Part shown: in pieces, positions 15,400 to 48,895 of the stretch | How the letters are laid out: each line of letters starts with the position of its first letter | Numbering within the stretch: the stretch's first letter is position 1 | NCBI GenBank assembly: GCA_949741215.1 | Contig: CATJLA010000087.1 | Span: forward strand, 1-64,000 | Length of the DNA stretch: 64,000 nucleotides | Direction of reading: 5' to 3' | Source: an uncultured Oscillospiraceae bacterium | GTDB taxonomy: Bacteria; Bacillota; Clostridia; Oscillospirales; Ruminococcaceae | Notes under the pieces: generated by a model | What the model was told of the DNA's origin: nothing | Database searches by the model: none | The model's input: only the letters and a program-made list of their open reading frames with translations | Made by a program: the position numbers and the translations under genes

Positions 15400-15595
15400 T
15401 AAGTAAAAGGGAATAGTGAAGAGTGAATAGGGATAGAACGCTCCTATGGGAGCGATTTGAATGGTGCGGAGGAGGGGGCGGATTGGTGGTTTGGGGAATG
15501 GCTTGGGCAGTTATTGTTTACAGAGAAACCCTTTTCAAATCCGTCCCGCAGGGACACCTACACTATTTACTATTCACTATTACTTTTTACTTATA
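15400..15595. repeat. Complete MITE/REP-like inverted-repeat element (copy E)
   Basis: TAAGTAAAAGGGAATAGTGAAGAGTGAATAGGGATAG..GCTCCtatgGGAGC.. and inverted TAAGTAAAAAGTAATAGTGAATAGTAAATAGTGTAGGTGTCCCtgcGGGAC.. Confidence 0.8.
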
Positions 15596-40998: not shown

Positions 40999-41799
40999 AT
41001 GTCCCTTTTACAATTATCCCCGGTGCTGCAGGCGCTGCTTGCCACAACCTTCACCTGGGGAATTACTGCGGCGGGGGCGGCGTTGGTATTTTTTATTGCC
41101 ACAGCCAACCGCCGGCTGATGGATTTGCTGATGGGCTTTGGCGCCGGCGTTATGATAGCCGCCAGCTATTGGTCGCTGCTGAACCCTGCCATAGAGCTTT
41201 GTGGGGAGCTGGGGTATCACCCTTGGCTGCTGCCGGTAACGGGCTTTGGCGTGGGCGGCCTGTTTTTTGTAGGGGCTGACAGACTGCTGGAACACACTTT
41301 GTCCGGAAAAGAAAGCCTTGGCGCAATGGGCAAAAGCTCCCTAAAGCGGAGCCTGCTGCTGGTTACTGCCATTACCTTACATAACATCCCGGAGGGGATG
41401 GCGGTTGGGGTTGCCTTTGGGTGCACTGCCCTGGAGATGCCGGGGGCCTCTCTTTCAGCGGCTATGGCGCTGGCGCTGGGGATTGGGCTGCAGAACTTTC
41501 CGGAGGGCGCGTCGGTTTCGCTACCATTGCGGCGGGACGGGATGAGCCGGTGGAAAAGCTTTTTTTACGGGCAGGCTTCGGGCCTGGTAGAGCCTTTGGC
41601 CGGAGTTATCGGGGCGGCGGCCGCAGTTTCCTCCAAAGCGATGCTCCCGTTTTTGCTTTCCTTTTCCGCCGGAGCAATGATTGCGGTAGCAGCCGCGGAG
41701 CTGATACCGGAATCCACCGCACAAAACAAAACCCTGGGGGCCATGGGCGTGGTTGCCGGCTTCCTAGTAATGATGCTGCTGGACATCGCCTTAAATTAA
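40999..41799 (+). CDS. ZIP-family metal transporter
   Basis: TLHNIPEGMAVGVAFG...LGIGLQNFPEGASVSLPL. Confidence 0.93.
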   Translation: MSLLQLSPVLQALLATTFTWGITAAGAALVFFIATANRRLMDLLMGFGAGVMIAASYWSLLNPAIELCGELGYHPWLLPVTGFGVGGLFFVGADRLLEHTLSGKESLGAMGKSSLKRSLLLVTAITLHNIPEGMAVGVAFGCTALEMPGASLSAAMALALGIGLQNFPEGASVSLPLRRDGMSRWKSFFYGQASGLVEPLAGVIGAAAAVSSKAMLPFLLSFSAGAMIAVAAAELIPESTAQNKTLGAMGVVAGFLVMMLLDIALN

Positions 41800-41810
41800 T
41801 TACATTAACT

Positions 41811-42093
41811 TAAGGTAATAGGGAATAGTGAAGAGGGAATAGTGTAGGTACGCTCCCTGCAGGAGCGATTTTAATATTGCGGCGGTGGTTTTTGGCCGGC
41901 TGTGATTGAAATAGCCTTTTCGTCCGCCAAAATGTTTCACGTGAAACATTTTGGTTGCAACCTCAACTTTTTACAGTCAAGAAAAGCTATTTCAACAACA
42001 GCCAATAAAAAATCATACTCTGCAACATTAAAATCGCTCCTTCAAAGGAGCGTACCTCCACTATTCCCTCTTCACTATCACCTATTACTTATA
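41811..42093. repeat. Complete palindromic MITE/REP-like element (copy A) with central parS
   Basis: ~70-bp imperfect terminal inverted repeats, inner inverted repeat GGCTGTgaTTGAAATAGCcTTTTC / GAAAAGCTATTTCAAcaACAGCC, parS at centre. Confidence 0.85.
41927..41954. promoter_or_regulatory. parS: parS site in a 28-bp perfect palindrome
   Basis: CCAAAATGTTTCACGTGAAACATTTTGG. Confidence 0.88.
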
Positions 42094-45713: not shown

Positions 45714-45830
45714 GAAAAGTAAAGCTATTTCAATCTCTGGGCAACAAAAAATAATCTCGGCAACATTCCAATCGTTCCTGCAAGGAACGTACCTCCACTA
45801 TTCCCTATTCACTCTTACTTTTTACTTAAA
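45714..45830. repeat. Partial MITE/REP-like element (copy B, right half only)
   Basis: AAAGCTATTTCAA...GCAACATTCCAATCGTTCCTgcaAGGAACGTACCTCCACTATTCCCTATTCACTCTTAC. Confidence 0.75.
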
Positions 45831-47707: not shown

Positions 47708-48472
47708 ATGGCGAAAAAAGCCCTTTTTATCGGCGCCCATAACGATGACTGCGAGTGTGCTGCCGCCGCTACCGCATATCTGCTTGGACAAAAAGGCTAT
47801 GAACTGGTATTTTTGAATGTTGCCTGCCGCCATCGGATTCCTTTAACGGGAGAACCTTTCCGGGAGGCGCTGTGGCAGCAGCAGGAGGCCGCCAGGATTT
47901 TGGGGGCGAAAAAAATAGTAATCGGCCCCCATGGCGAAGAGCCCTATCAGTATGACGATGTGATCTATACCAATGACAAGGAGAATATGCTGGCTATCCG
48001 CAAGGTGCTGCAGGAGGAAAAGCCGGACCTGGTTTTTATCCACTGGCCTAAGGATAACCATGTGGACCACGCCGCTGTTTCCCGGGCTTCTATGGACGCA
48101 ATCTGTCTTTCCCCCTGTGAGGGCTGGGCGCCCCGGGAGGTATACGCCTTTGAAGCCGGCCCCTACCAGACCATGGTTTACTTTGAGCCGGACATTTTCA
48201 TCACAGCGGATACCGCCGCTGAAAAGGTAAAGGAAAGCCTGCTGGTGTTTAACCAGCAAACCGCCGGAGGCAAATGGCTTTGGAAGGAAAAGGAGGTCAG
48301 TATGGCATTCCGGGGGCATATTGCCGGGGTAAAGTACGCCGAGTGCTTCAAGATCATCAAATTTCCGGCAGGCAATCAGGGCAGCGAGCTCTGGCTCCGA
48401 AAGGATTTGGAGGAATATTTCTCTTGGGCGGGCTTTAACGCGTATCCTTGGGGCAGAAAATACTTCTTATAA
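47708..48472 (+). CDS. PIG-L family deacetylase
   Basis: ALFIGAHNDDCECAAAATAYLL, HWPKDNHVDHAAVSRASMDA. Confidence 0.9.
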   Translation: MAKKALFIGAHNDDCECAAAATAYLLGQKGYELVFLNVACRHRIPLTGEPFREALWQQQEAARILGAKKIVIGPHGEEPYQYDDVIYTNDKENMLAIRKVLQEEKPDLVFIHWPKDNHVDHAAVSRASMDAICLSPCEGWAPREVYAFEAGPYQTMVYFEPDIFITADTAAEKVKESLLVFNQQTAGGKWLWKEKEVSMAFRGHIAGVKYAECFKIIKFPAGNQGSELWLRKDLEEYFSWAGFNAYPWGRKYFL

Positions 48473-48530
48473 GTAAAAACGAATAGGGAATAGTGAATAG
48501 TGTAGGTGTCCCTGCGGGACGGATTTTAAA
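48468..48530. repeat. Terminal repeat of MITE/REP-like element (copy C)
   Basis: ATAAGTAAAAACGAATAGGGAATAGTGAATAGTGTAGGTGTCCCTGCGGGACGGATTTTAAA. Confidence 0.75.
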
Positions 48531-48645: not shown

Positions 48646-48701
48646 AGTACCATTTTATCTGGTTTTGTTTTGGACGAAAGTGCTTTCGGTTTTTTCTAAA
48701 A

Positions 48702-48717
48702 TGTTTCACGTGAAACA
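48702..48717. promoter_or_regulatory. parS: parS site
   Basis: TGTTTCACGTGAAACA exact. Confidence 0.87.
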
Positions 48718-48774
48718 ATTGTTCTTTTGCGACGAAGAATATTCCTGCTTTTTTCCTTAAACGCTGGAATTTTC

Positions 48775-48803
48775 TTGCCTGTATCTGGTAGGTTTGCTAT
48801 AAT
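48775..48803 (+). promoter_or_regulatory. sigma-A-type promoter upstream of GH27 gene
   Basis: TTGCCT, 17 bp, TATAAT. Confidence 0.65.
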
Positions 48804-48895
48804 GAATCCATGATTGCAGGGGAAGGCCGGCGAAGCGGTAAAACAATGAGGCTGCGCTTACGTCCTATAAGCCCCTGCCAAAAGGAGGTTCTCTT

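Follow-up and report, generated by a model that had tools for sequence, protein, structure and literature searches.

Inverted copies of a genome-wide repeat around parS, and dozens of dispersed parS sites with a one-sided GTTC box, in an uncultured Oscillospiraceae bacterium

The centromere site parS is usually present in a handful of copies near the replication origin. In the stretch of DNA analysed here (the window; 64,000 nucleotides of contig CATJLA010000087.1, referred to below as C87), an exact parS lies at the centre of an intergenic element at positions 41811–42093. A sequence-only reading had described this element as near-palindromic, with terminal inverted repeats of ~70 bp, and had suggested that a transposable or REP-like element of this kind could spread parS. 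The question that this locus raises is what the element consists of, and whether such elements account for the parS sites of this genome.

The near-palindromic organization was confirmed: inverted arms surround a 28-bp perfect palindrome (CCAAAATGTTTCACGTGAAACATTTTGG; 41927–41954), which holds the exact parS 16-mer TGTTTCACGTGAAACA (41933–41948) and has a GTTC box on neither side. However, the arms are not private terminal repeats of this element but two copies of a genome-wide ~107-bp repeat, here called R. One copy, which covers positions 3–108 of the 109 in the R profile and has the top score in the sequence read, is on the + strand (41813–41918), and the second is inverted (41984–42091, − strand). 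The arms are 93% complementary over 42 nt in their outer part (41815–41856 and 42047–42088), 78% in the inward continuation (41858–41893 and 42009–42044) and 76% in the innermost segment (41886–41919 and 41982–42015), and the fold energy of the element strand is −88.4 kcal/mol (z = −18). The element occupies the space within a convergent gene pair, whose stop codons lie at 41799 and 42085. With parS enclosed by inverted repeats, this copy has the arrangement looked for in a mobile element.

Three parS sites with up to two mismatches are present in the window (beginning at 80, 41933 and 48702), as against 0.00 expected from shuffling. The first (80–95) is origin-linked, lacks the GTTC box and abuts R, an R copy on the − strand being cut by the contig end (1–72). 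Bases 1–99 of C87 match, exactly and in inverse orientation, the final 99 bases of contig C71, which carries the oriC/parAB region; we infer that C87 and C71 are neighbours, joined by an inverted repeat that stopped the assembler. If so, the element at 41811–42093 would lie some tens of kilobases away from the origin genes; its parS is thus probably origin-linked, with most of the 87 exact sites of the genome lying elsewhere. The third site belongs to a dispersed type, in which parS (48702–48717) is followed by GTTC (48721–48724) within the composite AAATGTTTCACGTGAAACAATTGTTCTTTT (48699–48728, + strand). A partial R (48470–48530, + strand) lies 171 bp from this composite parS. The window also contains an R copy without parS (45721–45828, − strand) and two partial copies inverted relative to each other (15400–15473, + strand; 15532–15593, − strand) with no parS between them. 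A symmetric two-mismatch variant of parS, TGTTACACGTGTAACA, is found at C87:64150, 150 bases past the window end. Further repeats, resembling GGACGTAACTGCCGG or GGCCGAAGCCTAAAA and likewise dispersed, stand beside many composite parS sites, for example at 48760–48870, and palindromes of the CAGGACGTCCTG type are also common.

In the whole genome (2.33 Mb in 192 contigs, 88% complete), 87 exact parS sites were found, and 95 at up to two mismatches, whereas the reversed control pattern gave none; 150 relatives from the same family and order contain 0–6 exact sites each. Site-by-site reading covered 1.75 Mb, partly from contigs picked for having parS, with some short contigs represented by N and genes called with a simple caller. 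The resulting catalogue comprises 90 sites, of which 84 are exact, three have one mismatch and three have two; an independent scan gave 84, 3, 3 and 3 sites at 0, 1, 2 and 3 mismatches. As their flanks vary between sites, the catalogued sites represent distinct loci. The 77 dispersed sites share a core of ~33 bp consisting of an A-rich stretch, parS, WTNGTTC and a T-rich stretch (consensus AAAA-TGTTTCACGTGAAACA-WTNGTTC-TTTT). They are intergenic, none of the 77 being within a predicted gene, and where both neighbours are known the gaps are co-directional (44), convergent (15) or divergent (9). All 16 parS positions of this class are 99–100% fixed and the information falls to background ~10 bases out on either side, while in-register flank similarity to any other site was seen at only 38 of the 90 sites. 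An unchanged core with mostly unrelated flanks beyond ~33 bp points to selection on the core, and the pattern of the dispersed sites is that of a short site kept by selection. Their spacing is evener than random (p = 0.017 and 0.0065), as examined by a density test on contigs C118–C192, chosen irrespective of sites, and a nearest-neighbour test on all contigs.

The GTTC box separates two classes of sites. Of the 76 exact sites that are not origin-linked, 66 have it at positions +4 to +7 after parS, as against none of the eight that are (Fisher p = 1e-6), and it is one-sided at 65 of the 66 boxed sites; five of the ten non-origin sites without GTTC have GTTT. The number, spread and conservation of the sites, their asymmetry, and the split between the origin and elsewhere are established. 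In Listeria, GTTC follows none of 14 parS or near-parS sites close to the origin, and hence the box is dispensable for parS as such. The Listeria records were taken as a control from a plasmid search for the composite, which itself gave weak partial matches only. A replication-oriented motif was rejected upon the orientation of the composite relative to GC skew (34/53, p = 0.05) and to the local gene strand (33/62, p = 0.70).

Among 394 genomes of the same order other than the source genome, none contained the composite. It is present at four of the five first-listed sites in the MAG UBA3767, at all five first-listed sites in the MAG SRR10912540_bin.40 (CAMZIK), and at 10 of the 16 first-listed sites, mostly as GTTCG, in Gordonibacter pamelaeae. 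UBA3767 and CAMZIK are, like the source genome, Clostridia, and Gordonibacter belongs to the Eggerthellaceae, whose genomes contain 26–122 exact parS each. In the Peptococcaceae genome RGIG1748 the GTTC box is present at none of the five first-listed parS sites; this genome has 30 exact parS, most of them on one contig that has a dense cluster. The parS listed for G. pamelaeae (chromosome of 3.6 Mb) lie at about 0.45–2.97 Mb, most densely at ~1.2–1.44 Mb, with none listed in the other ~1.1 Mb. IMG/VR viral contigs were also seen to carry exact parS in arrays of three, in some cases with GTTC following.

The R profile was built from seven copies and scanned over the 1.75 Mb, in which 115 copies were detected, none of them within predicted genes. 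Most copies are single and most are without parS, and inverted pairs also occur. R shows no strong preference for orientation, and a role as terminator was rejected upon this basis; Rfam gave only a plant microRNA hairpin model, which was rejected with 28 bits against a cut-off of 180. Where R and parS adjoin, the register is fixed, with parS ~16 bp past the 3′ end of R or 7–9 bp ahead of its 5′ end. Such junctions are present at about 16 of the 90 sites, mostly in the parA/parB region, where C71 carries tandem units of parS, 7–9 bp, R, ~16 bp and parS. In comparison with random intergenic positions (200 trials), R lies within 300 bp of 10 of the 13 box-less parS sites (three of the 13 being degenerate) versus 1.3 ± 1.05 expected; as this is far above the null, R and parS are associated, and R–parS units have been duplicated near the origin. 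For the dispersed sites the corresponding count is 18 of 77 versus 8.6 ± 3.0 expected (maximum 18 in the 200 trials), and in the 1.75 Mb read no R was found within that distance of the remaining 59. Most parS copies are not R-borne. Co-occurrence of the repeat with parS, which the sequence-only reading proposed to test genome-wide, holds for the box-less sites but does not extend to parS travelling with R throughout the genome. Similarly, its suggestion of transposable or REP-like spread agrees with R being REP-like and with the duplicated R–parS units but fails for the dispersed sites, which are mostly without R; a mobile parS element as the route of spread is not established.

In the origin region parA, parB and noc lie beside dnaA, mnmG and rsmG, with one parS of the origin cluster inside mnmG; smc is also present. 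By the residue rule for ParB/Noc specificity (PMC7383237), the encoded ParB has parS-type contact residues (R173/T179/G201-type) and Noc has NBS-type residues (Q173/K179/R184/R201-type), and ParB is therefore the expected reader of parS. NBS-like sites number 42 at up to two mismatches versus 4.8 for random palindromes. The ~ninefold excess of these degenerate sites (ATTDCCCGGGHAAT-like; on C19, C36, C68 and others) suggests a working Noc system.

The end of parS together with GTTC reads AAAC-N4-GTTC (GAAC-N4-GTTT on the opposite strand), and both the GTTC and the GTTT sites counted above conform to the operator geometry RAAC-N4-GTTY; this is also the form of GAACnnnnGTTT/C, the motif with which LexA operators of Clostridium difficile have been screened for (PMC4234289). 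With a matrix of composite positions 12–23, the best intergenic non-parS match in the 1.75 Mb is the source genome's own lexA promoter, a result that depends upon the matrix window, since with 13–24 it becomes the second intergenic match and with 12–28 it is gone from the top. Four Eggerthellaceae lexA promoters (two of Gordonibacter, one each of Adlercreutzia and Rubneribacter) have either AAAACATTTGTTCG or AAAACATCTGTTCG, and in recA promoters of this family AAACATATGTTCG, AAACAAATGTTCG or similar sequences are found; minus-strand loci in this comparison were turned by hand. RGIG1748 has a GAAC-type box before lexA, though its first-listed parS sites lack GTTC. No clear box was seen upstream of the source genome's recA, no AAAC-N4-GTTC box of the expected kind upstream of recA in UBA3767 and CAMZIK, and no box was visible at lexA of these two genomes. 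Their recA genes are preceded by CTGT..ACAG-type inverted repeats (AACTGTCC-N8-GGACAGTT in CAMZIK), possibly a different damage-response operator. Base 2 after parS is T in 99% of cases, a stronger constraint than at the same position of the LexA boxes seen, which are few. The genes beside composite sites, as judged by eye from sequence, have housekeeping and metabolic rather than SOS functions, and an operator set controlling SOS genes was rejected for this reason. LexA is the likeliest candidate reader of the GTTC box. No description of a LexA–parS composite was found in the open-access literature.

Our preferred model, which we put forward tentatively and at somewhat below an even chance, is that the dispersed sites are ParB-loading sites at which LexA and ParB compete. 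ParB, with its parS-type residues, would load at parS. The last bases of parS, AAACA, together with the one-sided GTTC would form a LexA-type operator, AAAC-N4-GTTY, and due to this overlap binding of the two proteins at the composite would be mutually exclusive. In normally growing cells the dispersed sites would be hidden by LexA, so that the unboxed origin-linked sites alone act as centromere; upon DNA damage the loss of LexA would allow ParB, with SMC, to load chromosome-wide. For two species, ectopic parS is reported to be tolerated only in a region of ~600 kb surrounding the origin (PMC7333895). Unmasked dispersed parS would hence be unexpected, and some kind of masking is an economical assumption, for which the overlapping LexA box would offer a means. 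The wider proposal of damage-gated centromeres, by which dozens of LexA-overlapped parS in several unrelated gut-type bacteria would let SOS switch ParB/SMC from origin-only to whole-chromosome loading, is one that we hold with slightly greater reserve. The element at 41811–42093 is an inverted R pair around a probably origin-side parS, and as part of the LexA–ParB model it may be understood as one of several R–parS junctions amplified near parA/parB.

A different possibility, plausible though with distinctly less than an even chance, is that the dispersed sites are constitutive loaders of ParB (or ParB–SMC) that organize the chromosome lengthwise, much as Noc sites serve division control, the GTTC being read by another factor or modulating ParB. 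That the parS core is sharply conserved and the sites are intergenic and evenly spaced agrees with this, as does the spread of the G. pamelaeae sites over the span given above, and the recA promoters of UBA3767 and CAMZIK argue against LexA in those genomes. However, it leaves the LexA-type spacing of GTTC and the lexA-promoter match without explanation, and parS far from the origin is costly in the species tested (PMC7333895). It is rather unlikely that parS owes its spread to a mobile element of REP/MITE type, either R or another, of which the present sites are the remains: the fixed-register junctions, the tandem units of the parAB region and some upstream repeats common, in register, to several composite sites accord with such a history, but most composite sites have no R nearby, the 16-mer is unchanged while its flanks are mostly unrelated, and there are almost no decayed parS copies.

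Two further readings appear very improbable. The A-tract and T-tract on either side of the inverted repeat and a mild excess in convergent gaps (15/68) could indicate that the composite is simply an operator or intrinsic terminator whose likeness to parS is fortuitous; however, the universal parS is matched exactly in a genome with a parS-type ParB, all 16 positions are fixed, loop included, and the sites occupy gaps of every kind (promoter, terminator and co-directional). The stem is without covariation, and the terminator reading of the composite was rejected upon this ground. In Bacillus, Noc sites are dispersed, and with noc in the origin region it is conceivable that this paralogue, rather than ParB, reads the dispersed sites; but binding by Noc was rejected in view of its NBS-type residues (Q/K/R/R) and the separate enrichment of NBS-like sites.

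The sites described here resemble those of chromosomal ParABS systems in the exact 16-bp sequence, the gene order around the origin, SMC and the origin cluster. However, reviews of parS report at most 20–23 sites per genome, near the origin (PMC7333895), whereas this genome has 87, mostly dispersed and with a one-sided GTTC that is missing at the origin. Like Noc sites they are dispersed and number in the dozens, with a ParB-family protein as the expected reader, but their sequence is that of parS, and separate NBS-like sites and an NBS-type Noc are present. With Gram-positive LexA operators they share the RAAC-N4-GTTY geometry, and their sequence is close to identical with that of the Eggerthellaceae lexA/recA boxes and of the genome's own lexA promoter, yet half of the box is within parS, and they are neither at SOS genes nor consistently at promoters. 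R is comparable to REP/BIME repeats in its length, intergenic location, >100 copies, internal hairpins and occurrence singly or in inverted pairs, but differs in abutting parS in fixed register. In Pseudomonas aeruginosa ParB binds many sites away from the origin, as half-parS heptamers (GTTCCAC/GTTTCAC; PMC10419367), whereas the candidate sites identified here from sequence comprise the whole 16 bp of parS and a box in addition.

Origin clustering of parS and its varying site number are regarded as an open question (PMC7333895). The 87 exact sites in this genome, and those of the Eggerthellaceae, exceed the known range of parS. The presence of two site classes in one genome provides a ready test of how centromere sites can be tolerated everywhere on a chromosome. 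If the box is that of LexA, chromosome segregation and the DNA-damage response would be wired through one overlapping DNA site.
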